Part shown: one piece after another, positions 221-24,400 of the stretch
Numbering within the stretch: the stretch's first letter is position 1
Layout of the letters: every line of letters starts with the position of its first letter
Source: a virus
DNA: 31,774 bases
Direction: 5' to 3' (one strand)
Virus record (IMG/VR): IMGVR_UViG_3300010151_000074
Location: 1-31,774 of that record
Position numbers and translations under genes: made by a program
The notes under the pieces: generated by a model
Database searches by the model: none
Told to the model about the DNA's origin: nothing
The model's input: only the letters and a program-made list of their open reading frames with translations

Positions 221-538
221 ATGGATGTTGGCTATCACGTTGTTAAATACTCTACTCATAGGCAGATATTTTCTGGTATAATATACCGTAATAAGGATGA
301 TGATTTGTTCTTATGTAGGGGTGAGAAAGGGACAGGCTTTATAGTAGAGCAATTAGATAGTAAGGAAGTTAGATACATGGACTATGATAAGTCCGATAGT
401 TTAGGACGGCGAGCAAGCTTGATGTTGAGAAGTGGGAAGTCGTGGCATATTACTGCCGAAGCTAAGTCCTTGTTAAACAAGGCTATTGAATGGGAACATC
501 AACAATTTACTACAATGACTGAGGATTATATAGCATGA
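221..538 (+). CDS. Hypothetical protein, 105 aa, first complete gene of the replication block
   Basis: I do not recognise this protein. It has mixed charge, no membrane segment and no cysteine cluster; the first half looks beta-rich and the C-terminal third helical. The start at 221 has a good ribosome binding site, AAGGAG at 207-212, eight bases upstream. The stop overlaps the start of the CobS-like gene as ATGA, which implies translational coupling with the ATPase and VWA pair. By position it could be an accessory of that pair, but this is inference from context only. Confidence 0.75.
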   Translation: MDVGYHVVKYSTHRQIFSGIIYRNKDDDLFLCRGEKGTGFIVEQLDSKEVRYMDYDKSDSLGRRASLMLRSGKSWHITAEAKSLLNKAIEWEHQQFTTMTEDYIA

Positions 539-1671
539 GTAACGTAGATAGAGCAACATTAGAAGTTATGCTGGCTCGTAAGAGGAAACTAAGGGAAGAG
601 CAGAACGCTGAAAAGATAGATAGCACTCCAGTTGTGACAGAAGCAGACACATACTTAAAGCAATCTGTTACACCAGTTAAGCAAGATAGTACCGATGAGA
701 TTGATACTAGAGCCTTATTCTCTAAGATATTCTGGAAGCCTATCAGTATGCCTGACTTCTTAATCCCGTCTTATTCCCCCGATCACTGGGCTTCTGAGAT
801 CAGGTCTAAGATACCTACCATAGATAAGACTTACTTCTTAGATAAGAAAACCATAGAGAAAATAATGTTCTCTATCAGGGAAGGGGATACTACTCTTTTA
901 CATGGTCAGACAGGGACAGGTAAGACTACTATAGCAGAGCAGATTGCTGCTCACTGTGGCATACCTTTCTTCAGAGTGTCATGCCACGGTCAGATGGAAG
1001 CGTCTGAGTTTTTAGGTGGCAACTCAGTAGTCAATGAGAATGGAGTCCCTATAACTCAGCACTCTAGCACTGATACTACAACTGCTGCTACCTATGGTGG
1101 TATGTTATGTATTGATGAGGTGTTTAGATCACCGGCTGAATCCCTTATGACCTTGCAATCTCTCTTTGAGATTCCTCACAAGTTATCATTGCAAGATTCA
1201 CATGGCATAGACAGAGACATTAAGATACCAGAAAATGATTTCTTCTTAGTGCTAACAGATAACACCACCGGAACAGGTGATTCTCAAGGTAACTTTGTGT
1301 CTGAAGTACAAGATACTTCTACTCGTAATCGTATTAGACGCTGTGTTTATGTGGGATATATGAGTGCAAAGGATGAGCTTGCCTTATTACAGAAAAGTTA
1401 TCCAGATACGCCAGCTTCTATACACATATCCATGATTAAAGTAGCAAACCTAATGCGTAATGCTTTCGATGAGAACATCATCATGGATACTATGAGTATC
1501 AGGGAGTTGCTTACTTGGTCTAAAGACTTGAAAGACTTGAGAAATATAGAGCAAGCGTTTCACTTCGGAGTGTTTGGTAAGTTAGGTAAGGATGACATGG
1601 TGCAAGTGACTGATATGTATAGACAAGTGTTTGCTACTGATGTAACTGAAGGAGATACAACTGATGAGTAA
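535..1671 (+). CDS. cobS: CobS-like / MoxR-type AAA+ ATPase
   Basis: A 378-residue AAA+ ATPase of the CobS/MoxR clade. The Walker A motif GQTGTGKT is at residues 124-131 and the Walker B acidic pair is D194-E195. A sensor-1 segment DNTTGTGD at about 242-249 closely resembles the ANTxGxGD signature of CobS, and arginine-finger candidates fall at about 264-269. The first 75 residues are hydrophilic and probably flexible. In bacteria CobS is the ATPase of aerobic cobaltochelatase with CobT and CobN; other MoxR ATPases act as chaperones with VWA partners. The next gene encodes such a partner, overlapping by 8 bases, so the two very likely form one complex. No CobN is present here, so cobalt insertion is not established. 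The gene symbol is given by homology only. Confidence 0.85.
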   Translation: MSNVDRATLEVMLARKRKLREEQNAEKIDSTPVVTEADTYLKQSVTPVKQDSTDEIDTRALFSKIFWKPISMPDFLIPSYSPDHWASEIRSKIPTIDKTYFLDKKTIEKIMFSIREGDTTLLHGQTGTGKTTIAEQIAAHCGIPFFRVSCHGQMEASEFLGGNSVVNENGVPITQHSSTDTTTAATYGGMLCIDEVFRSPAESLMTLQSLFEIPHKLSLQDSHGIDRDIKIPENDFFLVLTDNTTGTGDSQGNFVSEVQDTSTRNRIRRCVYVGYMSAKDELALLQKSYPDTPASIHISMIKVANLMRNAFDENIIMDTMSIRELLTWSKDLKDLRNIEQAFHFGVFGKLGKDDMVQVTDMYRQVFATDVTEGDTTDE

Positions 1672-3520
1672 TAGTACCTTATCTTTATGGGACATCACAC
1701 TCATAGCACAGCGTAGAGCTGAGAGCTTAGGGGTTCCTATAACTTTTGATGAGCAGTGTGAGCAACCTTACTACAGTCTAACGAATGGGATTGTATTTCC
1801 TCGACCGTCCCTTCCTGTGTCTGAGAGAGAGTTAGTTGTAATGAGGGGTTCGTGGATACATGAACCGTTACACGTCTTGAGAACAACGTCAATTAAAATC
1901 TTCCGGTCGTATCCTAAAGATGATCCTAGTTTAACGGATGAGTTCATGTATGTTTGGAACATGATTGAGGATGACTCTATGGAGAGAGCACACGCTGCTG
2001 TCTATGAAGGGGATGCCCAAGACTTGTCAAGTATGTATTACTTGATAGCTAAAGAGAACCTAAATAAGTATAAGGAGGTCGCTGAGAAAGAGGGAGGTGA
2101 GCTACAACTAGACGCTGACACTACTAAGATGCTGGCTCTACAAACCTTGCTCTTGATATCCCGTACTGATTGGGATAAAAAGGTGGACTTGATAGTGACA
2201 GAGTATCTGGAGGCTATCCCTGCTGACAGTGCCGAACTAGCCTTACACTTAGAGGAAGAAGGTTACATAGACTTGATGAGGAAAGCAGTATCACAGCACC
2301 AAGTCCATGATCTAGCTAGAGAATTATATAATAGAGTATGGCCGAAGAGTTCTGAGTTACCACCCCCACCACCTGAAGAAACCCCTGACACTGGTGATGA
2401 AGAACCTAAAGAGAATGAGTCAGGAGAATCACCACCACCAGAACCCAATGAAAATCAAGAAGGTAATACAACACCACAAACTCCTGAAGTAACTGAAATA
2501 GTAGATAAGATAGACGCGAAAGAGGAAAGTATAGAAGCACCAGTACCTTTCGCTATACACTGGGAAGATCTAAAGAACAACGATGAATCTGGTTTAGATT
2601 TAGAAGTTCCTTCTACTATAGATTATACTGGTAAAGATAAGGCCGGATCTTGGGTTCCTTGTGAACCCTCAAAGAGAAACATCATACACTTAGATGATGA
2701 CACTCACCCTTATAAAGAACGTGATACGGATAGTTACTTAAAGGGGGCTAATCTTTGCAATTCTTTAGGGAATCAAATCCGCAGGAACTTACAGATACTA
2801 ACCAAGTCTAAGCTAAAGGCGGAACGTAAGACAGGTAAAGTACATAATAAAAACCTGTTTAGATTAACGGCTCCTCAAGTGGGGACAGGTGATTGGAATA
2901 GTAGGATATTCAAAACTAGAAAGAAAGGATTGGATTTAAATTGTTGTGTAACTATCTTAGTAGACTGGTCTGGTTCTATGGGTGGAGAGAAAAGAGTTAT
3001 AGCTGCGCAAGCATCACTGGCTTTACTTCACACGTTTGATAAGGCATTGAACATTCCGGTAGAGATATTGATGTTCGCTGCTAGGTCAAGGCAAATGAAC
3101 TTCGGTATAGTAAAGTCATACAATTCAAGGGCATACACTGACCACCAGATAGTAAGAAGGATGAATGGATTTACTCCCTTCGCAGCAGGTAATCAAGATG
3201 CTGACGCTCTACTATGGGCGCACTCAAGGTTAGTTAAACAGAAAGCAAGCAGGAAAATACTAATAGTCTTGTCTGACGGCAGTCCTTCCGTGTCTTCTAG
3301 AGGTAATGCCGGAGATTATCAAGACCCTGACGCTGGGTTACAATTAGTAACACAGGAATTGAGAAAGAAAAGTAGCAAGATAGACCTGTATGGTATAGGT
3401 ATACAGGATAAGAATGTATTAAGATTCTATGGGGACAAGGCACAAGTAGTAAAGAAACTAAGTGACTTGCCCGAAGTATTATTAACGACCATAAAGCAAG
3501 GAGTATTATCTAATGGTTAA
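1664..3520 (+). CDS. cobT: CobT-like VWA-domain protein with HExxH motif
   Basis: A 618-residue protein in three parts. The N-terminal region carries HEPLH at 66-70, a zincin-like HExxH, followed by NMIED at 99-103, a pattern seen in VWA-linked putative metallopeptidases. Residues about 227-285 are a Pro/Glu-rich acidic linker, as in CobT. The C-terminal VWA domain has a complete MIDAS metal site: DWSGS at 434-438, T504 and D538. It overlaps the CobS-like ATPase upstream and a membrane protein gene downstream. The likely role is the substrate-binding or adaptor partner of the ATPase: a chelatase subunit, a chaperone that remodels metal sites, or an ATPase-gated peptidase. The pairing is clear; the biochemical activity is not. 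Confidence 0.82.
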   Translation: MSNSTLSLWDITLIAQRRAESLGVPITFDEQCEQPYYSLTNGIVFPRPSLPVSERELVVMRGSWIHEPLHVLRTTSIKIFRSYPKDDPSLTDEFMYVWNMIEDDSMERAHAAVYEGDAQDLSSMYYLIAKENLNKYKEVAEKEGGELQLDADTTKMLALQTLLLISRTDWDKKVDLIVTEYLEAIPADSAELALHLEEEGYIDLMRKAVSQHQVHDLARELYNRVWPKSSELPPPPPEETPDTGDEEPKENESGESPPPEPNENQEGNTTPQTPEVTEIVDKIDAKEESIEAPVPFAIHWEDLKNNDESGLDLEVPSTIDYTGKDKAGSWVPCEPSKRNIIHLDDDTHPYKERDTDSYLKGANLCNSLGNQIRRNLQILTKSKLKAERKTGKVHNKNLFRLTAPQVGTGDWNSRIFKTRKKGLDLNCCVTILVDWSGSMGGEKRVIAAQASLALLHTFDKALNIPVEILMFAARSRQMNFGIVKSYNSRAYTDHQIVRRMNGFTPFAAGNQDADALLWAHSRLVKQKASRKILIVLSDGSPSVSSRGNAGDYQDPDAGLQLVTQELRKKSSKIDLYGIGIQDKNVLRFYGDKAQVVKKLSDLPEVLLTTIKQGVLSNG

Positions 3521-3734: not shown

Positions 3735-3901
3735 GGTGCAAGGCTTGCAATAGGATTCTTCAAGGTGTTGATTGGTTGTATGCAGAAACCAAGAAAGACT
3801 ACGAAGATTTATGTCTCAAGTGTAGAGACTTATCAACATTAAAGGACAAAGAAAATGAGATCGACAAAGATACCAGCAAGACTGATACTAAGTCTAACTA
3901 A
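3731..3901 (+). CDS. Zinc-ribbon microprotein, 56 aa (GTG start)
   Basis: This gene starts with GTG in a GTGA overlap with the previous stop. The product has cysteines at 3, 6, 28 and 31 (CKAC and CLKC), a clear two-CxxC zinc site, followed by a charged Lys/Asp-rich tail. The last 47 bases overlap the start of the primase gene in another frame. The regular cysteine pairs and the start overlap support a real gene. Zinc microproteins of this type are common in phage early regions and are usually of unknown function; binding to DNA, RNA or a host protein is possible. Confidence 0.65.
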   Translation: MRCKACNRILQGVDWLYAETKKDYEDLCLKCRDLSTLKDKENEIDKDTSKTDTKSN

Positions 3902-4904
3902 GTATGATGGTATATCATCAGGGCAGTATAGGTTTAACCATACAGACTGCTCCGCAGGAGAGGACACGAAGAAAAGATTGTATATAAAAATACCTACTAA
4001 GCAACCGTGGACAAGGGTTGCTTACTGTCATAACTGTGGGTTAAGTGGGTTCGCTACGTTAAGATCGAACTCTTATGACTATCGTAGGGCAAAGCAACAT
4101 GAGAAGTTATTACACAATTTTAATGCAACAGAACGTAATTCAAGGGAATATGGTTACAAGATAAGCTCTGGAGATCGGAAACAAGAACGCTTAACAACAG
4201 ATCGTCAACTCCAAACTCCCTTTGAGGATTGTCCTTCAGACGTGAAGGTAAGGCTAACTCATGCTCGTATAGATGAGGATAGGTATAACAGATACCTTAT
4301 AAATTATAGCCCCGCTATTGATAGGATAATAATACCTTATGTGGAATACTCTGACCAACCATCCCTCTTATCTACACAATTTAAAGCGGTCACTCCGGGT
4401 ACAATACCGAAGTTTTTTACGGAGGAGGAACCCGGCGCAGAGTACAAGACTGATGTTATCTCAAGGCAATCTATGTCCCTAGCTCATAGGCATATTAGAA
4501 AAGAAAGTGAGGAAGGGTTCGTACACACTCCAGATACAAGCTGTTTAACCACTGGGAATAAAACTTTAGTTATAGTAGAGGATTATTTCTCTGCAATAAA
4601 TATAGCAGAGACTAATGATAATTACCATGCCCTCCCTTTAGCCGGAGTACATTATAATACAATGCAAATAGCGGAAATTTTGGAGAGAAATTTATATACA
4701 AATATTATAGTATGGTTAGATAATGATAATGAAACCGTTATCAAGAAAGCGAAAAGATTAGAGACAGACCTTGAGTTCTTAGGAGGTGGTGCTACTGTGC
4801 ATAGATATATAGGAACTAACCACGACCCTAAACTTCTCAGTGATACTGAGATATCTGGTACAATAGATACAATGATAACGGAGACAGATAACGATGTACT
4901 TTAA
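3855..4904 (+). CDS. DNA primase with zinc site and TOPRIM domain
   Basis: A 349-residue stand-alone primase. Near the N-terminus, H29 and C32 with C58 and C61 (YCHNCG) form a probable zinc-binding motif for template recognition. The TOPRIM catalytic domain has its acidic residues in VEDYFSA at 241-247 (E242) and in WLDND at 287-291 (D289, D291). It would make RNA primers for lagging-strand synthesis. The next gene is the DnaB-type helicase, overlapping by 11 bases, so the two activities fused in T7 gp4 are split here. The start at 3855 has AAAGGA about 8 bases upstream, which supports it despite the overlap with the zinc microprotein. Confidence 0.85.
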   Translation: MRSTKIPARLILSLTKYDGISSGQYRFNHTDCSAGEDTKKRLYIKIPTKQPWTRVAYCHNCGLSGFATLRSNSYDYRRAKQHEKLLHNFNATERNSREYGYKISSGDRKQERLTTDRQLQTPFEDCPSDVKVRLTHARIDEDRYNRYLINYSPAIDRIIIPYVEYSDQPSLLSTQFKAVTPGTIPKFFTEEEPGAEYKTDVISRQSMSLAHRHIRKESEEGFVHTPDTSCLTTGNKTLVIVEDYFSAINIAETNDNYHALPLAGVHYNTMQIAEILERNLYTNIIVWLDNDNETVIKKAKRLETDLEFLGGGATVHRYIGTNHDPKLLSDTEISGTIDTMITETDNDVL

Positions 4905-6120
4905 TTCCGCTTTAGCTTTATTGGGTAAGGATAAAGAATCCTTTGAAACATATTTCCCTTACTTAAATAACTTCCATGTCCCTGCTGAAGTTGCTTGTCT
5001 ATTAGAATCTATAGAGAAGTACTATGGTTTAGGCAATGATAAGATAGATTGGGAGGAATTCAGAGGGTGGTTTCATATAGCCGAACACCCAACACTAGGG
5101 GCTAAGAAGCACAAAGTATATGATACATACATAGATAATATAATTAAAGCACCGATTGATGAGGGTGCGGTACAACGAGTGTATGAATTAAAGACAGCAG
5201 ATCAGATACAAGACTTGACCGAGGAGATAAAGAGCGTAGCTAATACAGATAGCCTAGAAGAAATCATAGAGATTAGCCAGTCATACTTAGAGGACAGGCT
5301 TATCTCAGGTGACGATCATATAGTTGACATGGATATAGATACGCTAGTTAAGTCAGTTGTATTAGGAGATGGTATAGAGTGGAGACTCGAAGGCTTGAAC
5401 ACTAGCTTAGGACAAGTACATAAGAGCGACTTCCTCTTGGTAGTCAAGCGACCAGAGACAGGAGGCACAACCTTCCTTACTTCTGAGTTCACTCATATGC
5501 TCAAGCAATTACCCGAAGGTAAGAACGCTATCATTTTTAACAATGAAGAAGGTGGCGCTAAGTTAGGGTTGCGCTTAGTACAATCAGCATTAGGTGTAAC
5601 AGCCCAAGAGATAGCAGCAGATGTAAAACAAATACAGAAAGACTTTGATACATTCTTAGGTGGACGGAAGATTCTTATATGTGATCCGCCTGATGGGCTT
5701 ACTACCCATAAGATTACCGACGTACTAAAGAATAACCCTGACTGTTGGCTCATAGGCATCAACGTACTTGATAAGGTAGGAGGATTCTATAAGCACGATG
5801 AAGTACAACGTCAACGTAAGCTAGCAGAGTGGGCTAGAAATACTGCTAAGAATCATGGGGTTGTACTAGCTGTACTACAAGCAGACGGCTCGGCAGAAGG
5901 TCAACAATTTATGAACCAAAGTCAAGTGTACGGTTCTAAGACTGGTGTGCAAGGGGAAGCAGATGGTATGATTATGATAGGACGTGATGTAAAGACCGAT
6001 ACTATACGGTATATTAGTGTAGCTAAGAATAAGAAACCAACGACAGGTAAAATGGAACCGTCATTAAGACACGCACAGTTTGCTTGTGCCTTTGACCAAG
6101 ATAAAGGAAGATTCACATGA
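4894..6120 (+). CDS. Replicative DNA helicase, DnaB/RecA-fold, with unusual P-loop
   Basis: A 408-residue helicase with an N-terminal helical region to about 160 and a RecA-fold motor. A conserved-looking NNEEGG at about 217-222 supplies the catalytic glutamate region. A segment reading ADGMIMIGRD near the C-terminus matches the late motif of DnaB-family helicases. The P-loop is odd: KRPETGGTT at 185-193 aligns with the usual ARPGxGKT, but the lysine is glycine (G191) and the first glycine is glutamate. The base sequence reads cleanly (gga ggc aca). K185 might compensate. It sits between primase and polymerase with short overlaps, as expected for the replication core. Confidence 0.82.
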   Translation: MYFNSALALLGKDKESFETYFPYLNNFHVPAEVACLLESIEKYYGLGNDKIDWEEFRGWFHIAEHPTLGAKKHKVYDTYIDNIIKAPIDEGAVQRVYELKTADQIQDLTEEIKSVANTDSLEEIIEISQSYLEDRLISGDDHIVDMDIDTLVKSVVLGDGIEWRLEGLNTSLGQVHKSDFLLVVKRPETGGTTFLTSEFTHMLKQLPEGKNAIIFNNEEGGAKLGLRLVQSALGVTAQEIAADVKQIQKDFDTFLGGRKILICDPPDGLTTHKITDVLKNNPDCWLIGINVLDKVGGFYKHDEVQRQRKLAEWARNTAKNHGVVLAVLQADGSAEGQQFMNQSQVYGSKTGVQGEADGMIMIGRDVKTDTIRYISVAKNKKPTTGKMEPSLRHAQFACAFDQDKGRFT

Positions 6121-8093
6121 TAGTCATTGATGTAGAAACTACTATGAGGAGTAACACAAATTTTTCTGCTACTCCTTTCGATCCTAAGAATGAAATGTTA
6201 TCACTGGGGTATACGCAAACAAGTATCATACCAACAGCTAGTAGAATTGTAACATCTTACGATCAAGGTATGTCAAAGACCCGCATAATAAACGACTTGA
6301 ATGTTAAGGATAAACCAATCGTATTCATTGGACATAACATTAAGTTTGATTTACATTACTTGGTGTTAGAAGGATTAGACTTAGATCAAGTATCACTAGC
6401 ATATGATACACAGTATATGTATTACTTATTAACAGGTAAGAAGTCACCAAGTCTAAATGATGTGGCCGATTACTATAAACTACCTAGAAAAAAGGATACC
6501 CTATCGGAATACTTTAGTAATAATATATCTATTGAGGACATACCAGAAAAAGAAATGCAAGAGTATCTTACCCAAGATATATCCCTTACTAAAGAAGTGT
6601 TCATAAGGTTATGGGATGACCTTTGTCCTGAACTATCCCCCTTAGTAGACTTAAACGCTAAGTTAAACATGGCTTTACAAGCTATGGAAATGAATGGTAT
6701 TTATATTGATAAAGAAAAATTATACCATGAATATAATAAAACAGATCTTGTAGTAGAAGATAGTTTAACAGAACTAAAGAGATTGGCTACACTGATATAC
6801 CCTGCCGGTACAGTGCCAGCAAAACTACACACAACAAAAACTTTGAATCAAATTTTTAGAGGCAAGCCAGTTAAGACAAAAGAAAAGTACGAAGCTGGTG
6901 TATACAAGAACGGCAACATAAAATTTGCTACAAGAGAAGCTGTAGTATATACAGATCAACCTATTGTTGGTGATGATAACTGGACTAAGAAAGAGAGAGC
7001 AAACGAGAATGTAAATCTAGGGTTGCCTATGGGGGAGAAGCAACTACAAACAATACACGATCATGTACGTGGTCTTACTGTAGCACAGAAAGAGTATGCC
7101 CTTCAAGTAATTAAGTATAGAAAGTCTAGTAAGCTAAGAGATTCTTTCCTCAAACCTATTGGGGATTACTTGAGAGAAACTCAGAGTGGAGCTATACACC
7201 CCACGTATAACTGTACTACCACTAGTACTGGTAGGTTGTCAAGTACAAACCCCAATGCACAGAACCAACCACCTGAAGTAGAGGCACTGTTCACTACACC
7301 TACAGCAACAGGTGATAGCATAGTGGTACGAGCCAGCGCAGACTTCAAACAACTAGAGATATGGGCAGCAGCAGTATTATCTGGTGACTCACAACTACTA
7401 GAAGATATAGGTAACGGAGTAGATATCCCTGATACCATTGCCGCCAGTGCAAACTTATCCGGTTATAAACAACCGTCCGTCAGACGGTTATGTAAAGTTG
7501 TACTATACGGTACTATTTATGGGGGCTATCCCGCTGGTCTATCAAAGCAAACAGGGTGGGACAAGAAAATAATTCAAGACATACAAGCTGCTTTCTTTGA
7601 TAGGTATCCGGGATTAAAGAAATACTACGACGACTACATAACACTAGTAAATAATAGTAGTCCTATAGCACACCATCCCACTACCGGGGGAGCTATCGTA
7701 GCTATCCCTTCTATTACAGGCAGAATATATAGATACACACAGTACCCTCAATGGGATGGTAGGCTAGACTTTAACGTTCCTCAGTTGTATAACTACAGAA
7801 TACAAGGCTTCGCAACAGGGGATGTAGTGCCTCTCTATATCGCTTGTTTTCTAGATACATTAGAGAAGAATTATAGTATTGGTGGCGCACCTATCTGTCA
7901 CCTAGAACGTACAGTACACGATCAAGTAGGGACTAGGTGGACTTTCCCACGTTCAGGATTGAGTTCAGATAAAATAGAACGGATAATAGAAGGAACTTAT
8001 GACGATGCTCTTGGTCTTACTCATATAGCATTAAAAGAGTGGTTGCCCAGCTTGCCTGAGCTGCCACTGGTTCTCGACTTAAAGATTTTTTAA
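6117..8093 (+). CDS. polA: Family A DNA polymerase with 3'-5' proofreading domain
   Basis: A 658-residue family A polymerase. The exonuclease motifs are DVE at 5-7, a GHNIKFD segment (Exo II) and YLTQD (Exo III, YxxxD). In the polymerase domain motif A is DFKQLE with D409. Motif B is RRLCK then YGTIYG, with K460 and Y464; Y464 aligns with E. coli Phe762 and T7 Tyr526. Motif C is HDQ at 601-603 instead of the usual HDE. There is no 5'-3' nuclease domain. Tyr at this position has been linked in marine virus surveys to virulent, fast-replicating phages. The gene overlaps the helicase stop by 4 bases. Confidence 0.93.
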   Translation: MIVIDVETTMRSNTNFSATPFDPKNEMLSLGYTQTSIIPTASRIVTSYDQGMSKTRIINDLNVKDKPIVFIGHNIKFDLHYLVLEGLDLDQVSLAYDTQYMYYLLTGKKSPSLNDVADYYKLPRKKDTLSEYFSNNISIEDIPEKEMQEYLTQDISLTKEVFIRLWDDLCPELSPLVDLNAKLNMALQAMEMNGIYIDKEKLYHEYNKTDLVVEDSLTELKRLATLIYPAGTVPAKLHTTKTLNQIFRGKPVKTKEKYEAGVYKNGNIKFATREAVVYTDQPIVGDDNWTKKERANENVNLGLPMGEKQLQTIHDHVRGLTVAQKEYALQVIKYRKSSKLRDSFLKPIGDYLRETQSGAIHPTYNCTTTSTGRLSSTNPNAQNQPPEVEALFTTPTATGDSIVVRASADFKQLEIWAAAVLSGDSQLLEDIGNGVDIPDTIAASANLSGYKQPSVRRLCKVVLYGTIYGGYPAGLSKQTGWDKKIIQDIQAAFFDRYPGLKKYYDDYITLVNNSSPIAHHPTTGGAIVAIPSITGRIYRYTQYPQWDGRLDFNVPQLYNYRIQGFATGDVVPLYIACFLDTLEKNYSIGGAPICHLERTVHDQVGTRWTFPRSGLSSDKIERIIEGTYDDALGLTHIALKEWLPSLPELPLVLDLKIF

Positions 8094-10756: not shown

Positions 10757-10957
10757 ATGGGCGCTTATAAAAATGAAACAATAATCGCTGAAGATGATGA
10801 GTTAATAAAGCAGCACCGAACACACGTTGTATATGAGCCTGATACCTGTCCTTCTTGTCAAGGATGGGGAGCTATAGATGACGGTAATACCGGAATGAAA
10901 GAACGATGCCCCGACTGCGATGGGGAAGGATCAATAACCAGTAAAAGGACTAGGTAA
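10757..10957 (+). CDS. DnaJ-type zinc-finger miniprotein, 66 aa
   Basis: The protein has two CxxCxGxG modules, CPSCQGWG at 31-38 and CPDCDGEG at 51-58. This is the repeat of the DnaJ central cysteine-rich domain, but here as one pair, without a J domain. Four cysteines would bind one zinc. It starts two bases after the phosphoesterase gene and its stop overlaps the ribonucleotide reductase start by one base, so it is likely co-translated with the reductase. It could be a chaperone-like or redox aid to a neighbour enzyme, or a nucleic-acid-binding peptide; none is shown. Confidence 0.78.
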   Translation: MGAYKNETIIAEDDELIKQHRTHVVYEPDTCPSCQGWGAIDDGNTGMKERCPDCDGEGSITSKRTR

Positions 10958-12849
10958 TGACACCATACCAGCAGTACATTTATAAGAGTAGGTACGCAAG
11001 ATACTTATCTGATGAGAAGCGGAGAGAGGAGTGGCCGGAAACAGTGGCTCGTTATATCAACTTCTTTAGAGATAGGAACCAGACAGCTAAGATACCGTGG
11101 GCTAAATTAGAGAAGGCTATTCTTAACTTTGAGATCATGCCATCTATGCGGTGCTTGATGACCGCAGGTAAAGCCTTAGAACGAGACAATGTATCAGGAT
11201 ATAACTGTGCTTATACTCCCATTGACCACATCAAAGCGTTCGATGAGATACTATATATCCTTATGTGTGGTACAGGAATGGGTTTCTCAGTAGAGAGACA
11301 GTACATCAGTAAACTACCTGAAATAGCAGAGGAATTCCATGAAACCGAAACCATTATTGTTGTTAGAGATAGTAAAATCGGATGGGCGAAAGCCCTCCGG
11401 GAACTTATCACCTTACTCTATTCGGGCCAAATACCCCAATGGGACTTATCAAACATACGCCCTGCCGGGGCTGTACTCAAGACCTTCGGAGGCCGCTCAA
11501 GTGGGCCAGAACCTCTTGACCAATTGTTTAAGTTTTGTGTCGGAAAAATTAGCGGAGCTAAAGGTAGAAAATTAAACTCACTGGAGGTGCATGATGTTAT
11601 ATGTAAGATCGCAGAAGTTGTTGTATGTGGTGGGGTACGTCGAAGTGCTCTGTTGTCTCTTAGTAATCTCACTGACGCTAGGATGCTCAACGCTAAACAA
11701 GGAGAGTGGTTCTACGCAGAACCCCAACGAAGCCTTGCCAATAACTCCGTCGCCTATACAGAACTCCCGGATATGGGAATTTTCATGCAAGAATGGAAAG
11801 CTTTACATGATAGTAAAGCAGGGGAACGGGGAATTTTTAATAGAGAGGCTTGTAACAAACTCTTGCCGTCCCGTCGTAACCCTGAATTTGATTTCGGAAC
11901 CAACCCCTGCTCCGAAATAGTACTAAGGCCGCAGCAATTCTGTAACTTGACTGAGGTTATCTGTCGTTCAGAGGACACACCGGCTACCTTACTCACTAAG
12001 ATAGAATTAGCTACTATACTAGGAACCCTACAGTCTACCTTAATAGACTTCCGGTATCTCCGTAAGGTATGGTCATTCAATACTATGGAGGAAAGGTTGT
12101 TAGGAGTATCCCTTACAGGGATCATGGACAATAGACTGTTAAGTGAAGAACAAATGGATTGTGATGGACATTATCATTACGATGATATGAAAGATACCCT
12201 TAATAAACTAAAGGAGAAAGCAATTGAAACAAACAAAAAATATAGTAAAGTACTTGAGATACCTGTATCTAGTGCCGTTACTTGTGTTAAGCCTAGTGGT
12301 ACAGTTAGTCAGTTGGTTGATAGCTCTTCTGGTATACACCCTCGTTATTCTGACTTCTATGTCCGTCGCGTCCGTTCTGATGTTACAGACCCACTATCAA
12401 GAGCACTTCAAGATGCCGGAGTTCCTAATGAAATTTCTCAAAACAATCCAAGAGAACTGGTATTCTCCTTCCCAATTAGTAGCCCTGATACATCTACAAC
12501 TATCAGTCAAATGGGTGCAATTACGCAACTGGAGCACTGGAAAGTTTACGCGACTTCGTACTGTGAGCACAAACCTAGTGTCTCAATTTATGTCAAAGAT
12601 ACAGAGTGGATGGCAGTAGGAGCTTGGGTATATAAGAACTGGGAATACATGAGTGGGGTATCGTTCTTCCCACACGACGATCATATGTACCCACAAGCTC
12701 CTTATGAGAAGATTACAGAGGAACAGTATAAGGAATTAGCTGACGCTATGCCTAAATTTAATCTAAGCAATTTGATTATGGATGAGGAGGAGGATGTGAC
12801 TACTTCAAGCCAAGAGTTAGCTTGTGTAGGTGGAGCCTGTGAGTTATGA
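10957..12849 (+). CDS. nrdJ: Class II (adenosylcobalamin-dependent) ribonucleoside-triphosphate reductase
   Basis: A 630-residue monomeric class II reductase of the Lactobacillus leichmannii RTPR type. Diagnostic segments are C224 in VCGGVRRSA (redox cysteine), NPCSE at 316-320 with C318 as the thiyl-radical cysteine and E320, and a KPSGT segment. The C-terminal tail has cysteines at 623 and 628 (C-x4-C) that regenerate the active site. It makes deoxynucleotides for phage replication, using adenosylcobalamin instead of oxygen or a small subunit; no NrdB-like gene is nearby. Dependence on B12 ties replication to host cobalamin supply, relevant to the CobS/CobT-like pair upstream. It overlaps its neighbours on both sides. 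Confidence 0.93.
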   Translation: MTPYQQYIYKSRYARYLSDEKRREEWPETVARYINFFRDRNQTAKIPWAKLEKAILNFEIMPSMRCLMTAGKALERDNVSGYNCAYTPIDHIKAFDEILYILMCGTGMGFSVERQYISKLPEIAEEFHETETIIVVRDSKIGWAKALRELITLLYSGQIPQWDLSNIRPAGAVLKTFGGRSSGPEPLDQLFKFCVGKISGAKGRKLNSLEVHDVICKIAEVVVCGGVRRSALLSLSNLTDARMLNAKQGEWFYAEPQRSLANNSVAYTELPDMGIFMQEWKALHDSKAGERGIFNREACNKLLPSRRNPEFDFGTNPCSEIVLRPQQFCNLTEVICRSEDTPATLLTKIELATILGTLQSTLIDFRYLRKVWSFNTMEERLLGVSLTGIMDNRLLSEEQMDCDGHYHYDDMKDTLNKLKEKAIETNKKYSKVLEIPVSSAVTCVKPSGTVSQLVDSSSGIHPRYSDFYVRRVRSDVTDPLSRALQDAGVPNEISQNNPRELVFSFPISSPDTSTTISQMGAITQLEHWKVYATSYCEHKPSVSIYVKDTEWMAVGAWVYKNWEYMSGVSFFPHDDHMYPQAPYEKITEEQYKELADAMPKFNLSNLIMDEEEDVTTSSQELACVGGACEL

Positions 12850-14661: not shown

Positions 14662-15168
14662 TTATCTCTTCATTAATGCTGTTTTTTCTTTAGACCCTGA
14701 ACTAGACCCAAAGAAAAAGTTTAAGACTTGAGCTTGACCTGTAGTAAGGACAAGAACTAGACCAGTTAAAATAGGACTCTCTGATGGCAAGACTAATGCC
14801 CCGCTAAACAGTCCAAATAAAATTAAAAAATAAGCGGAGGTATAGAGTGTTGCTAGTATCTTCTGTGGATTGGCCCCCAATTCACTAGCCATCTTACGGG
14901 CAGAGTCCCTGTCCTTGAAGTTCAACTCCTCCCGCTTGATGCCGGACTCCTCCATAAACTTCTTGAACTCCAGATCAGCGTTCTTTACCTTCACTACTTG
15001 CTGGGGAGTCATGTTTTTCATGGTCGCATCGACCTTGGCTTCAGGCACTCCCAGTGCCTTGCTCAACATTTGCCCTGCAATCCCTCCAAATGGCCCACCA
15101 ACAGCCGTTCCTATTAGGGGGGCTAGGCTACCCAGCAGTTGTTTTGTAATGTCCTTAAAATCGCTCAT
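14662..15168 (-). CDS. 3TM holin (gene-transfer-agent holin family)
   Basis: A 168-residue protein with a hydrophobic Gly/Ala-rich N-terminal segment about 11-39, a charged middle with DRDSAR at 86-91, and two strong membrane helices at about 105-126 and 133-152. It ends in FFFGSSSGSK at 151-160 and a basic tail. The DRxSAR and FGSSxGSK motifs are characteristic of the GTA_holin_3TM family. Holins form membrane lesions that time lysis. It overlaps the end of the giant ejection protein gene by 4 bases, so it is expressed with the late genes. Confidence 0.8.
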   Translation of the reverse strand: MSDFKDITKQLLGSLAPLIGTAVGGPFGGIAGQMLSKALGVPEAKVDATMKNMTPQQVVKVKNADLEFKKFMEESGIKREELNFKDRDSARKMASELGANPQKILATLYTSAYFLILFGLFSGALVLPSESPILTGLVLVLTTGQAQVLNFFFGSSSGSKEKTALMKR

Positions 15169-18100
15169 AAATCCGGAACCATGTCGTCTGGGCCACCTCT
15201 TCTAAATGTATCGTGCATAGCTCTGTTTATTTCCCCGTTAGTCATGTTGTTTAGAATCTCAGCGTGTGTACTAGTGCCGGTAGGGTCTATATCACGTAGC
15301 GTTCTGCCCTCATCTAGAGCTGCAACATAAGTTCTCAGCTCGTTATCGAGGGGTCTTGAGGAGGCCATCTCACCTGCATCTAATGTAAATTCCATCTGTG
15401 GGAGAGGACTCTCTGTTGGGCCTAAGAGCACCTTACGAGCCTCCTCTCCCATATCATCTAATATCTGCCCTAATGGTTTCTCCCCCTCCCATTGCATCAG
15501 ATATATCTCGTCAGTGGTGTCGAACAAATCAGTCGCTGCTATTTTATCAAAGAAGAGTTCTTCGGTTATGGGTGCATTTAGGTCGGCGAATCCGTCCAAC
15601 GACGCGAACTCGTCGGAGAAACTCTCTGGTAGATAATCATATACTTCGTCATCCCACGTGCCATCTGGGCCTGTTCTCCGACGACGGATACGACCCCCGG
15701 CGGCCCGCCATACGATATTTCCCGTCTCGTCACCATCAATCGTAAATCTAGAACCACCAGTAACGTCCGTATCGTGTATAATAGTGCGTACATTACTCCT
15801 ACGTTCAAGCTGCGCAGCTCGGGCTTGCTCTGTTGCAGCTTGGGCTTCCTCTACGGATATAAGTTTGGCATCGTCAGTCAACCCAGATCTAAGTGCTAGT
15901 ACCCTCCGCTGCTCTTGGGGTGGGAAGTCTTTAGGAAAATAAATAAAATCACCAGTACGAGGATCTAGTTTTCCTCCAAGAGTTCCGTAAAATTTTTCTA
16001 ATCTGTTTTGTGCAAGTCCCGTATTAGCGACAGCCTCAAACGCTCCGGCATTTCCTATCATTGCTATACCATGCTTGTCAGCTAGTGTTTTAAGCTGTCG
16101 CATAGCGCGCCCACCGTCCCCTATATTCCCCCCCACGTTCCTTAATAGTGATAGATATACTATGCGATCTCCCGGCCCGCCAACGCCGGCATTTCCTGCT
16201 GCCAGTGAAGGTCTGTTGAGTCTGATGTACGCCCCCATATTTGGAGAGAATCTGCCTCCGTAATCTGCGGGGCCGGACAGCCCAGTTGGATTGAAAACTT
16301 TTTCATAGTCGTTCATAAAAGCTAGGAGTGCTTTAGTATTTAACTCTGGAGTTCCGTATTCCGGTTTCCCTTTGGTTGGGGGTTGCTTAGTGCCAGAACG
16401 GTGTTTTGTCACGTCCGTTTGCTTGGCATTGATACTCAGTTCGTTAGGATCATATATTATATATTGGTCATCTTTTATATCATCGTCGTATAAATTTTTA
16501 GCGTAAGAACTTTTAGCTCTTTTGCCGATTATGCCGTGTTTAACCAGAAGTTTAGAAGCCGCTTCTGGTGCTCCCGTGATCTCGACTAAAGCTTCATATA
16601 TACCATCACCATCCATGTTTATCCATACACTCTCGGTAAATTCCTGAGCTGCCCGTTCAGCCCGCTTCGATGATGTTCCCGCATCTTCCAGCACAGCGAG
16701 AAGGGTATCCCTTAATTCATGGACTTCTTTCTTGGTAAGTTCTCCATTTTGCATACGCTTTAATAGAGTTTGATCCCCGACAAGCACTCTCTTATCTATG
16801 TTTTTTGGTAGAGTTACTTCTGTGCCGTAACCTGAAGTCTTCATATGATTGCGATACTTTTCTAGGTACACATTTGGTTGAGTCTCTAGTAGCTTATCTA
16901 CTTCTTTAAGAAGTTCTACTTGTCGATGGCCCATTCCAGACCATGTTGCGTCTAAGACAGATGGACGACTCGCTAACGACAGTTTCTTTACTGCTTCGAT
17001 ATCTCCACCGTACAAGATAAGACCTTGCAATATCACATCTTCCGGCTTACCTAACTGTGCTGCTTCGTCCAGATTAAACGACAAATCCGTTACATCTGCA
17101 AATGGTCTAGTGCCACCACGGGACTCTAGAACTATGCCGTGTCCATGCTGTTTTGGCATGAATCGTCTTGTCTTTGTAAGATCAGTCAGTACTCTTGTTC
17201 TAGCTAGGGTCTGAGTAATAGGGCGTATAGCCATCCCTAAAAACCCTATTGTAGAAAATAATCCTTTTACGGGATCTATATAATTTGTTGGGTCTAGTGC
17301 CATTGATAGCCAAGCCGCTTGGCTATTAGGATCAATACCAGCTTCTATCAACCGTTGATATGAGCCGTAAGGATTAGTGTCTATAGCCTCAAAGTCTTTC
17401 TCTGTAAGTGCACCACCTTGTGGGTATAAGCCCGACATTGAGAGACCGAGCCATTTAGCGGCTACTTTAACAGCTTCATAAGTATCTGGGAGCAAACCCT
17501 TGATACGAGCCATTATAGCAGGAGGAAGGTTGGGATCTGTTAGTGCTTCTTCAATCCATTGTCCCGCTTGACGTTCCGCTTCAGGGGATAGTAGTCGTCC
17601 TTGCGTCGTAGCGGGGAGAGCATCGAAATTCTCTTGCTCTGTGCCAGCTTCATTGAAGGCTGCACTAAAAGCATCTAGTTGCTCATCAGTGAGAGTAGAG
17701 GGGTCGAGTAGGTTTTGATTATTCCGGCCCTCAAAAAATGCGCGAGACTCACCGCTGGCGAATTCTCCTTCACTCTCGTTATAGTCGGTATTATTCTGTA
17801 GTTCAAACTCTGCTCTTATCTGGTCATCTATAGACGGATCTTCCGGTGTCTCTGCTTGTGGACTACCCTCAAGATCTTGTCTTTTTTGTATTACTTGTGC
17901 TGCTATTTCCCCTTTAGTAAGGATACCATCCTTATCTAGATCTAATCCTTCGTTACTTGCGTATGCAGCTTTGATCGGATTATTCTTCTTCCCGTCTCTC
18001 CTTTCCTTATCTTTAGCCCACTTGGCGTAGGCTGGATCAAGGCCAGTCTTACCATCAGATGACCACACAACTGCATCATCGTCCCAACCTATAGCTTTAG

Positions 18101-19142
18101 GCCAGATGATAGACATATAAAAATCTGACATACTTGGTTGTTGGCCTTTAGGTAACAAGCGTTTGAGGGCAGGAGCCATGTGCTCTGTGACATAGGACAG
18201 TTGTTCTTCTTGAGTCATACGCTCAATCTCACCGAGAGTCACCCCTAATCCGCCAGCCGTATCTCCCATAAATTGAATCAAACCTCTAGCTTCTCCGAAA
18301 ACCCAGCGGCCAGTTTTTTTATCCCACCGTTTTCGGTTGGGTGCAGCGGTATCGAAACTATCTGCTGATTCAAAGGCTATAAAAGCTTTAAGATCTTTCC
18401 AATCTAGAGTTATGTCATACTCATCTTTCCATCGTTGTGCTTCAACTTGTAATAGCCTATCAAATTCTGGGCTGTCTCCCCTTTGACCATTCTCTTCCCG
18501 CTTTAGTAGTCGTGCTTCACGCTCGTCCTCGGTTTCCCCTATAGGCTCTACACTATAAGATCCATCTGCATTTCTTTTATAGGGTAAGTTTGCATCTTCG
18601 TCGCCCTCAATAGGGAAGATGTCTCTCCTAGTAGTGGGGTCATCCTTTGATGTACTGTAAGTTATAGGGTAAAGGGTATCGTTAGTGATACTCTGTCCCA
18701 GATTAAGTAGGAAAGGTATATTATCTAAGTCCAGATCACTCATAGCCATATGCTCAAGATTAAGGAGGGATCTACGCCCATCTTCAGTATTGAGGATATC
18801 ACTGGTATTGAGATTTAAGTGGTACTTATCTGTTACACTACCCTTAAATTGTAGAACATCTTCTAAAGTAGCTGCATTATAAGTATTTAACCATTGCCTA
18901 TGTTCCTCTGCTTTTACCCCATCTTCGTCTTTCAAACCTTCCCGTAAACCAGAAACATCTATATCAAACCAATCTATAAGATCTTCTATAGACGCACTAC
19001 CCCGCACTTCTTCTCGTATATTCTTCGGGCCTACACCAGTAGTACGGGCATCAGCCCGTACTTGAGCGTTAGGCGAGTACCTACCAAAAGTCCCACTACT
19101 GATGGGTATATTATCTACATCAACTTGAGTTTGATTAGGCAT
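15165..19142 (-). CDS. Giant gp16-like ejection protein: transglycosylase plus probable effector domains
   Basis: A 1325-residue protein, close to the length of T7 gp16 (1318). Residues about 250-330 look like a lytic transglycosylase: E258 in AFESA, then GLIQFMGDTA at 287-296, to open the cell wall during DNA entry. Residues 401-412 form a canonical EF-hand loop (D401, D403, D405, E412). About 737-907 resembles the C-terminal half of ADP-ribosyltransferase-like domains of polyvalent proteins (IYEAL, APEAASKLL, GIIGK, then YIIYDPNEL). About 970-1072 looks GNAT-like, with a Gly-rich loop near 1004-1012, LADKHGI and LEKFYGTLGG. The remainder is unassigned. Late gene order supports an ejected internal protein. 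The effector domains are pattern recognition, not proven. Confidence 0.85.
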   Translation of the reverse strand: MPNQTQVDVDNIPISSGTFGRYSPNAQVRADARTTGVGPKNIREEVRGSASIEDLIDWFDIDVSGLREGLKDEDGVKAEEHRQWLNTYNAATLEDVLQFKGSVTDKYHLNLNTSDILNTEDGRRSLLNLEHMAMSDLDLDNIPFLLNLGQSITNDTLYPITYSTSKDDPTTRRDIFPIEGDEDANLPYKRNADGSYSVEPIGETEDEREARLLKREENGQRGDSPEFDRLLQVEAQRWKDEYDITLDWKDLKAFIAFESADSFDTAAPNRKRWDKKTGRWVFGEARGLIQFMGDTAGGLGVTLGEIERMTQEEQLSYVTEHMAPALKRLLPKGQQPSMSDFYMSIIWPKAIGWDDDAVVWSSDGKTGLDPAYAKWAKDKERRDGKKNNPIKAAYASNEGLDLDKDGILTKGEIAAQVIQKRQDLEGSPQAETPEDPSIDDQIRAEFELQNNTDYNESEGEFASGESRAFFEGRNNQNLLDPSTLTDEQLDAFSAAFNEAGTEQENFDALPATTQGRLLSPEAERQAGQWIEEALTDPNLPPAIMARIKGLLPDTYEAVKVAAKWLGLSMSGLYPQGGALTEKDFEAIDTNPYGSYQRLIEAGIDPNSQAAWLSMALDPTNYIDPVKGLFSTIGFLGMAIRPITQTLARTRVLTDLTKTRRFMPKQHGHGIVLESRGGTRPFADVTDLSFNLDEAAQLGKPEDVILQGLILYGGDIEAVKKLSLASRPSVLDATWSGMGHRQVELLKEVDKLLETQPNVYLEKYRNHMKTSGYGTEVTLPKNIDKRVLVGDQTLLKRMQNGELTKKEVHELRDTLLAVLEDAGTSSKRAERAAQEFTESVWINMDGDGIYEALVEITGAPEAASKLLVKHGIIGKRAKSSYAKNLYDDDIKDDQYIIYDPNELSINAKQTDVTKHRSGTKQPPTKGKPEYGTPELNTKALLAFMNDYEKVFNPTGLSGPADYGGRFSPNMGAYIRLNRPSLAAGNAGVGGPGDRIVYLSLLRNVGGNIGDGGRAMRQLKTLADKHGIAMIGNAGAFEAVANTGLAQNRLEKFYGTLGGKLDPRTGDFIYFPKDFPPQEQRRVLALRSGLTDDAKLISVEEAQAATEQARAAQLERRSNVRTIIHDTDVTGGSRFTIDGDETGNIVWRAAGGRIRRRRTGPDGTWDDEVYDYLPESFSDEFASLDGFADLNAPITEELFFDKIAATDLFDTTDEIYLMQWEGEKPLGQILDDMGEEARKVLLGPTESPLPQMEFTLDAGEMASSRPLDNELRTYVAALDEGRTLRDIDPTGTSTHAEILNNMTNGEINRAMHDTFRRGGPDDMVPDL

Positions 19143-21404: not shown

Positions 21405-24400
21405 CTAATCTCTTCTAATTGATTCTAAATCTTGATTTAATTGCCAGAGTATATCAGGGGAGGCCATATCTACGTCCCGCACACTAGATGTGAATATCTC
21501 TATTAAAGCTTCTTTATCTTTCTGGCCTAGCTTTGTATCACGCATAACACGATCAATAACCCATTGATCTATAGGTACATTATCTACTATAGCATCACCT
21601 AGCATCTCTGTGACGGATTGTCGTTGCTCTTTAGCTCTTGCATTTAATCTATAAAATTCTTCCATCAGATAAGCCCACTCATTTTGATCAGTAGCAGATT
21701 GCAATAATAGTTTTTGTCCTGCTATCATGTGTTCCCATGTATCCTCAGTGATACGCCCATCTGTAAGTTCTCTAGATATACGTTGGACTCTATTAAAGTA
21801 CTCTCTAGCTGTATCTCTTAGAGCTTTTTCTTTATCCCGTACATCTTTATTTATACGGTAAGCCGTATTAACTGACTCTGTGTTTACTCCTAATATGCCT
21901 TTAGCCAATATCTCTGTCCATGTTGCTTCTATAGCATGAAGATCGCCATTACCGCTCATCCAATACCCTGCTTTAGTAGCTATTCTCGCCTTAACAAAAT
22001 CATTATAACCAGAAGCCATTCCCCGTAATACTAGATCAGCTACTTTAGTAGCTCGTTCACTAGCAGAAATATCTACATCGAAAGATACTACAGTTCTACC
22101 CATCTGATAGCCTTGCCACATTCGAGATAAAGTAGAACCAGAGGCTCCGGTCGCTCCTTCGATAAGTGGTTGATCAAAAGCTATGTCGATCATGTTACGT
22201 GCTGTGTTAATAATGTTTGCACCGGGAGCTAAGAACTCATCGAATGCGAAATCTAACTCTGGATCATCTGTCAGAGCTTGTAAAGATGTGTCAAGAATAA
22301 AATCAATCAATCCGCCTTCTAATAAATCAGCGGCAGTAGTGCCTATCATGTGAGATAATCCTGATTCAGCTAAAAGACGCTCTACTTCTGGCTTTACTCC
22401 GAACCCTGCTCCCCCAAATAAGACAAATTGCCCTAATACTAGCCGTCTAGCTTGGCTAGCTGTAAAAGTTTTGTTGCCAAGACCTCCTCCGGCCCCTTCA
22501 GGCAAGGCTCTAAGCATAATCAAGAGAGTTTTATGGGTAAATTGTAGAAACTGTGTAGTAAGGCTAGCAAATCCATATTGGAATTTAGCGGCATTGGCTC
22601 GGTTCATGGCAAAAGCATAGTTAGTCGCATTAATATCTACTTTTGCCCAGTCCTCTTTAGTAAAATCTTGTAGTTTCTTTAAGTGTTTGTTTTCTTTACG
22701 GTATATTCGTAAAGCCATAGTATAAGAAGACGATACGTTAACCTGTTCTCCTAAATCAAACCCTGCTTGTTGGAGGGCTTCTCGTACAGGTGCTGCTGTT
22801 GCGGTTCGTCTGGTTGTTTGAATCACATCTCCGACCCTTGTGGACGGTAATTCCTCTACAGCCTTCATATCTCCTGCAAAAGAGTGGCGATTAATAGCAG
22901 GAACTAGCCCTGATTCGCTGAACTTATCCACTAGCATCAGATACTCATCTTCAGTCAATCCCATGAGTTTTGAATTTCGTTTTATTAGTTGACTAGTTAA
23001 GCCTTTACCTCCTATTAAACCAGCCGCATCACGCTTCATTCCTTGTAATAAGACTATACTATCACGTTGCCATCTTCCAGCATACAAAGGATCTAATGCT
23101 TGTAAAAACAGATGTTGTGAACTCTGTAATACAAGCTGCCTAACAGGTCTAGTGACGATGAAATCAAAGAAAGATAGACCTTTCATAGATTGTAGAGGAT
23201 CAATATTAGGGCCAACTTTTCTGACTAGCCAAGTAGTTGCGCGAGTAGCCGAGGGTACTCCACGCAATTGTTCGTGCAACCATTCTGCCGCAGTGATAGC
23301 TTTAGATCTAAAAATTTGAGACCCTTGATTTATATTCCCTTCCATAAGGGAAATATATTCCCATAGCTCTAGGGCTTGGCCTATCCTAACTCTTTCCTTT
23401 CCGGAATGCTTTCCGTACAGAGCTATCAAGCTTTTACGAGTCTCGGAAGCAGGCTCTCTAATTATATCCCCTTTTATCAGATCACCATACCATTGCTTGA
23501 ATGATTGTTTTTGTCCAGCTACAAGATCAGTCATGGATAGTTCTTTACTTACCATTCTTGTGGCGCGTTCCATTGCATTTAATGGAGATAAAATATCTGC
23601 CTCTCCACCATTAACATTGACTAATCTTTTTTGCTGTCGTTGGTCGAAGATCAAGCGACCTTCAAGCCGAAACCGTTCTAAGTCCATAGCTGTGCGATCT
23701 TTACCGGATAATCTAGGATCTTCTTTAATAACTTCGTATACATTACCGGGATCTTTGTCCTTCATACGTGCAACGAATCTATCAGCTTCAGCCCTAGTCG
23801 CAGCAACTCCTACCGTGTGCTCTACATCCCTTGCCACACCATTGAAAAGACCACCTTTACTTATTTTCCTGACATAGTGAGCATCCTCATATATTCGAGG
23901 GTAGTATCCTTCAATGTATTTTAAAGGGTTCGCAGATAGCGGAGTCAGTACTAACTTGGTTGCAGCACCACTTTGCTTTGCCGGATTGTACATCACTAAA
24001 GTACTAGTAGTCTTTTCCTTTGCTAGAAAAGCTTGTGTATCATCTAGCTTTATTATACTCCCGCCTTCGTTAAATAGTTTTTTAAGCTCAGTACTAGATA
24101 ATTTCTCCATATTAGTAGTTGCAGCATCGTATACGTGCAATCGCTTATTCCCATCAAACAAAGGTTTTAATGTCGCCTCTGTTTGAGGTATTCCATGCCA
24201 TGTTGCGTCTAAGTTTGTGGCGCGTAGTGTGACATATCCAGCAGATTTCCACTCCCGATATAATTTTTCATTCATTACATCGTATATAGTATCGTAGAAT
24301 TCTTTAGTCAGTTGCACTCCTCTGAATTCATCCGGTCCTGCGTCAGGGAAGGCGTTTCTATATTCGAGTGTAGTCGGAACTCGGCCATTTTCAATAGCAA

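Follow-up and report, generated by a model that had tools for sequence, protein, structure and literature searches.

A phage DnaB-type replicative helicase family in which the Walker A lysine has changed its position

The virus record IMGVR_UViG_3300010151_000074 of IMG/VR, which was analysed over its whole length of 31,774 bases (this stretch is called the window below), carries a DnaB-like replicative helicase gene (positions 4894 to 6120, plus strand; 408 aa) with an unusual nucleotide-binding loop. Few catalytic residues are as strongly conserved as the Walker A lysine, which is regarded as positionally invariant in P-loop nucleoside triphosphatases. In the window protein glycine (G191) occupies position 7 of the loop, where the lysine is expected, and a lysine (K185) is found at position 1. 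Based on sequence comparison, we propose with a probability of roughly 0.8 that this is a working phage replicative helicase of the DnaB type (superfamily 4, SF4), in which the phosphate-gripping lysine would have moved along the P-loop, from position 7 (GxxxxGK[ST]) to position 1 (KxxxxGG[ST]). Directly established are the exchange itself, the coupling which leaves one lysine per loop, its conservation, its repeated origin, the synteny, the purifying selection and the DnaB fold.

The variant P-loop and its distribution

The window protein matches phrog_19 (E 1.2e-34) and, just over the cut-off of 27 bits, Pfam DnaB_C (29.5 bits), and its AlphaFold2 model matches DnaB structures (see below). 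Positions 5446 to 5472 of the plus strand read AAG CGA CCA GAG ACA GGA GGC ACA ACC, corresponding to residues 185 to 193 (KRPETGGTT). This in-frame translation of the 408-aa open reading frame (ORF) confirms an initial annotation made from the sequence alone, which had placed this string here with glycine at the position of the Walker A lysine. The loop itself, KRPETGGT (residues 185 to 192), spans positions 5446 to 5469, with the codon of K185 at 5446 to 5448 and that of G191 at 5464 to 5466; thus, there is no lysine at position 7 as in the classical GxxxxGK[ST] motif, but one at position 1. The DNA pattern of the motif occurs once in the window, with 0.00 occurrences expected. The annotation further held that the codons are at least two substitutions away from lysine. 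This was right in direction and understated, because GGC differs from either lysine codon in all three bases. Its statement that the first glycine of the motif was lost to glutamate did not hold: Glu188 is the usual residue in relatives with a normal GKT (44 of the 52 representatives with a classical lysine and the Walker B aspartate), and the first residue of GxxxxGK[ST] aligns with K185, a position occupied by alanine in normal relatives.

The same motif is present in the IMG/VR contigs L001 (protein identical) and L002 (protein 96% identical), and also in L008 (60% identity), L091 (58%), L009 (49%) and L010 (48%). All close relatives found carry it, and GKT appears only from about 41% identity downwards, so that close homologues with a normal GKT, named in the annotation as the sign of a mutated or misassembled copy, were not encountered. 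Relatives were collected by a search from a four-helicase alignment, of which the best 80 of 514 confirmed loci were taken, and by two further searches which enlarged the set (one of them the best 80 of 210). Nearly all of the best 80 of 514 show one of two P-loop states, A-R-P-x-x-G-K-T or K-R-P-x-x-G-G-T, with slight departures in the R-P part, for example in L019 and L023. The second state persists to about 32% identity with the window protein. A separate observation concerns the helicases L023, L183, L195 and L220, which have the normal lysine, but in which AYV replaces the usual ARP ahead of the loop (e.g. AAYVDTGKTT).

All IMG/VR contigs were scanned with three degenerate DNA patterns of one design, the hits were translated in frame and the ORFs were scored with the family profile. 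The pattern for K-R-P-[EDNK]-x-G-G-T-x-F was found in 51 contigs stemming from 44 metagenome identifiers (counted by hand), and in 51 of 51 it lies in frame in a DnaB-like helicase (E 2e-64 or better). The half-swapped patterns K..GK and A..GG matched 2 and 8 contigs across IMG/VR, respectively, with no helicase among them (0/2 and 0/8); in these ten matches the best family-profile E was 0.0014, and eight of the ten frames were shorter than 75 codons. Thus, the K..GG motif nearly suffices to identify this helicase family. The homologue search for a conserved KRPExGGT, which had been suggested as a check, turned out positive, and the independent copies bear out the view that a single read error is unlikely. 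We found no point in favour of an error in sequencing or assembly, or of a single copy altered by point mutation, and this explanation is practically ruled out by the 51 contigs and their 44 identifiers, the retention of the motif to about 32% identity and a ratio of nonsynonymous to synonymous substitution rates (dN/dS) of 0.04.

One lysine per loop and the number of exchanges

The family set comprises 221 aligned sequences, which correspond to loci (one contig may give several) and contain 135 distinct strings. K185 together with G191 (KG) is found in 113 of them, A185 with K191 (AK) in 107 and T185 with K191 (TK) in one, while P-loops with two lysines or without lysine are absent (0/221). 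The coupling is exact: K185 occurs with G191 in 113/113 cases, and alanine or threonine at 185 occurs with K191 in 108/108. Clustering at 95% resulted in 97 representatives (39 KG, 57 AK and 1 TK), and, within the stretches that were tabulated, columns 185 and 191 alone separate the lysine states across all origins. The kept residues are encoded by varying codons, AAA or AAG for K185 and GGC, GGT or GGG for G191. E218, Q329, R372, N379, K380, G190 and T192 are invariant in 97/97 representatives.

Because of the strict one-lysine rule and the repeated exchange, the simplest account is that K185 can fill the site of the classical lysine. Its amino group would enter the same beta/gamma-phosphate site from the opposite end of the loop, and the glycine at position 7 would make room for the K185 side chain. 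A contact between K185 and the phosphates is what we infer from the alignments. That K185 stands in for the lost lysine had already been suggested in the initial annotation, and this idea gains strong comparative backing from the strict pairing of K185 with G191, the lack of half-swaps and at least two origins.

Alternatively, the helicase could be active, but with the beta/gamma charge coming from elsewhere, namely from Arg186, a metal or potassium ion, or a lysine of the neighbouring subunit, and K185 could act in trans or sense DNA like the signature lysine of MinD/ParA. The active sites of SF4 helicases sit at subunit interfaces, which fits with such a contribution in trans. Further, PMC6310460 reports simulations in which the same two sites along the phosphate chain can be filled by monovalent cations. 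R186 is found in 39/39 KG representatives, but also in 54 of the 58 normal GKT relatives; since it is nearly as common there, its occurrence does not follow the loss of Lys191. The deviant Walker A motif of MinD/ParA combines a signature lysine at loop position 2 with the retained classical lysine, whereas in the family the classical lysine is always gone when K185 is present, and both lysines together occur in 0/221 sequences. In addition, wherever lysine was gained at 185 it was lost at 191, without exception and in two or more separate origins. We consider a charge from elsewhere rather unlikely, and relocation of the lysine to K185 remains our preferred explanation.

For the phylogenetic tree, columns 185, 191 and 290 were removed and 70 of the 71 representatives at 80% identity were used (L135, with 220 aa, was omitted). 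The tree requires three changes of the lysine position. The KG sequences with aspartate at position 290 (KG/D) form a clade (support 100/99) that adjoins L159, which has the normal lysine (99/95). Those with asparagine at this position (KG/N) fall into a main clade of 30 rows (98/96) and a second group, the pair L019 and L178 (100/99), with rows having the normal lysine and asparagine (AK/N) between them. A single clade for all KG rows is rejected by the approximately unbiased (AU) test (p-AU 0.0002 in two taxon sets), and a single clade for all KG/N rows gave a p-AU of 0.027 in the larger taxon set. From the tree and these tests, two origins of the lysine exchange are well supported and three are likely. 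Some of the changes of lysine position may be reversals, since the change counts are independent of the root.

Fold, gene order and other active-site residues

The AlphaFold2 model of the window helicase has a predicted local distance difference test (pLDDT) score of 92.8. Its input alignment contained 71 sequences, that is, 76 representatives minus the fragments L127, L095 and L124 and the named-phage proteins L004 and L005. Comparison of the model with full-length DnaB gave a Foldseek E of 2.7e-17 and a VIA Z of 28.8 to 4esv, and the best PDB matches are DnaB structures. Residues 1 to 408 of the model align to DnaB chains, with an N-terminal helical domain and a RecA-like motor in the DnaB arrangement, and for the motor domain the root-mean-square deviation is 2.4 over 235 residues to E. 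coli DnaB (6kza) and 2.4 over 240 residues to T7 gp4. At the sequence level, the window protein alone matched no helicase among the PDB sequences, while the family profile did, aligning A....GK. The fold is thus common to the window helicase and the DnaB and phage SF4 structures 4esv, 7t22, 6kza and 1e0j (T7 gp4), which unlike it have the classical Walker A lysine according to the profile alignment. The KG helicases are DnaB by descent and fold, yet they stand outside the classical definition of Walker A (and, in the clade of the window, also of Walker B).

Further active-site residues of DnaB/SF4 helicases are in place. Glu218 (in FNNEE; 5545 to 5547, plus strand), presumably the catalytic glutamate as in DnaB and T7 gp4, and Gln329 (5878 to 5880, plus strand), presumably the sensor glutamine, are both present in 97/97 representatives. 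The same applies to R372, N379 and K380 of the stretch R372 ... K378-N-K380 (6007 to 6033, plus strand), presumably the region with the basic residues that act in trans, while K378 is found in 95/97 (Arg in 2). The initial annotation had regarded the remainder of the helicase as intact, which is contradicted by Asn290 (5761 to 5763, plus strand) in place of the Walker B aspartate: in the alignment with MEP402 and ICP2, the window protein reads LIGINVLDK and MEP402 reads LIIFDQIDK. Asn290 is found in 41 of the 97 representatives and corresponds to one change on the tree (3 of the 221 sequences have no aligned residue at position 290). It is combined with the normal lysine in six representatives (AK/N), and aspartate at 290 is combined with the relocated lysine in four (KG/D). 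Since both combinations exist, the Walker B change is neither required nor sufficient for the lysine exchange, and the Walker B asparagine was rejected as the cause of the swap. In the lineage of the window, the lysine exchange appears to have come after the change from aspartate to asparagine. The six AK/N helicases (L016, L163, L166, L168, L180 and L205), with a normal Walker A lysine yet asparagine at the Walker B position, show a second unusual change of the active site, and this change to asparagine arose once on the tree.

The helicase gene lies between a DNA primase gene (3855 to 4904, plus strand; phrog_47 E 4.4e-14, with a weak Toprim match under the Pfam cut-off) and a family A DNA polymerase gene (6117 to 8093, plus strand; Pfam DNA_pol_A E 1.1e-34), which overlaps the helicase stop. 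This order is kept in the testable KG clusters, with the primase upstream in 28/29 and the polymerase downstream in 38/38. The KG helicase gene is under purifying selection: the dN/dS of the window and L002 is 0.042, and seven more KG pairs gave 0.06 to 0.16, as compared to 0.039 for the normal-lysine pair L016/L017. The value of 0.80 for the KG pair L011/L026 is uninformative, because the two are near-identical (dS 0.004), and two further pairs gave no value. Of 14 records, ten of which measure 43-50 kb, 13 contained a single DnaB_C match, and the Helicase_C profile for superfamilies 1 and 2 matched 0/14, but the records may be fragments and thereby hide a second helicase. In the remaining record, G004, the DnaB_C profile had no match although it holds a known KG/D helicase.

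These data also bear on the possibility that the protein binds nucleoside triphosphates, barely hydrolyses them and serves a host helicase as scaffold or loader. Mutation of the Walker A lysine usually abolishes a P-loop motor and is the standard way to inactivate it, and in the main clade the Walker B aspartate is altered as well. However, the lysine is relocated rather than lost, the KG/D clade retains the Walker B aspartate, and the expected catalytic glutamate, sensor glutamine and basic finger residues are found throughout the representatives. Strong selection, retention of the whole two-domain DnaB fold and the lack of a second DnaB_C protein in the 13 matched records, or of Helicase_C in all 14, also speak against such a role, which we regard as improbable. 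In our preferred interpretation as a working motor, the KG helicases would hydrolyse nucleoside triphosphates and unwind DNA.

Comparison with other P-loop proteins and implications

The helicases of Zobellviridae-type phages (Methylophilales phage MEP402 gp12, Vibrio phage ICP2 gp49 and Vibrio phage VP41s3) are homologous to the window protein over its whole length, and the primase-helicase-polymerase region and the E/Q/R/K active-site residues are as in the window. They differ, at about 30-40% identity, in having ARPETGKT or ARPNAGKT together with the Walker B aspartate. MEP402 and ICP2 are the nearest named relatives, both in the A-R-P-x-x-G-K-T state. The window protein is matched by 439 cultured-phage records. 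The P-loops of eight named phages were read (MEP402, ICP2, VP41s3, QDWS535, P26059B, Alfirin, Attikon1 and ct2os315, the last from a spring-water sample), and all have GK. When two 24-residue P-loop queries were compared with 50,697 phage records, 63 and 100 records matched, and among the 30 listed for each none reached 80% identity. Among genome contigs, 101 stretches matched a pattern and three encode relatives, 3/3 with GKT; the P-loop was not part of these patterns, and the result is not a census of prokaryote genomes. Our search of the open-access literature yielded no report of a DnaB-type helicase with its lysine at position 1.

A similar loop layout is found in large terminases, which are packaging motors of another branch of the additional strand, catalytic glutamate (ASCE) proteins. 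Lambda gpA (K76, KSARVGYS) and P2 gpP (K166, KSRQIGAT) follow KxxxxGx[ST]: position 1 is a lysine and position 7 is not. KRPETGGT of the window shows the same arrangement (lysine at 1, glycine at 6, Ser/Thr at 8). Position 7 is tyrosine or alanine in the terminases and glycine in the window; we note a likeness of layout and claim no descent. According to PMC9410871, lambda gpA has no lysine where one would be expected and carries one further towards the N terminus, and in HK97 TerL a lysine on the N-terminal side of the classical one is essential and has been proposed to contact the gamma phosphate. It is tempting to conclude, and we hold it to be fairly probable, that in one phage replicative helicase family the Walker A lysine hopped between positions 7 and 1 on two or more occasions, probably three, with no two- or zero-lysine intermediate seen; that the charge in the beta/gamma site is conserved and its position is not; and that the lambda/P2 terminase layout would be a convergent case of a general alternative P-loop.

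Several points weigh against our preferred explanation of a working helicase with a relocated lysine. In HK97 TerL, the classical K60 is retained and the additional lysine (K57) precedes it by three residues instead of six; the structure of lambda gpA is stated as unknown (both from PMC9410871). In an earlier, smaller taxon set, a single clade for the KG/N rows gave a p-AU of 0.145, with L016 not separated from KG/N, and therefore origins beyond two are uncertain. The change of the Walker B aspartate to asparagine in the main clade could signal a site under altered demands. Finally, no cultured phage with a KG P-loop was seen among the records described above.

The window contains other genes of interest. 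Positions 535 to 3520 harbour adjacent genes for a CobS-like AAA+ ATPase and a CobT-like VWA protein (Pfam AAA_5 and CobT_C). In many relatives such genes precede the primase, and cobT-cobS is a frequent order among those with the normal lysine. The same phage encodes a ribonucleotide reductase (10957 to 12849; phrog_367) with a weak match to a B12-dependent insertion domain (Pfam RNR-II_ins_dom). On the minus strand, two very large proteins are encoded, one of 1635 aa (21405 to 26312) matching the internal virion protein family phrog_12003 and one of 1325 aa (15165 to 19142) with a baseplate-hub/peptidase-like stretch; a 752-aa protein between them has no PHROG match.

The presence of a displaced lysine in this family is important for several reasons. 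Motif-based annotation would label the KG helicases inactive, which calls for caution. A family with a repeatedly displaced lysine is a natural experiment on interchangeable P-loop parts, in which natural sequences of both states, with the lysine at position 1 or 7, are available. Neither alanine to lysine nor lysine to glycine is possible with fewer than two base changes, which raises the question of the route through intermediates. Further, the family suggests a way to interpret the lysine-less P-loops of packaging motors. Last but not least, our observations in a group of uncultured phages suggest that a key P-loop residue can shift its position without loss of the motor.
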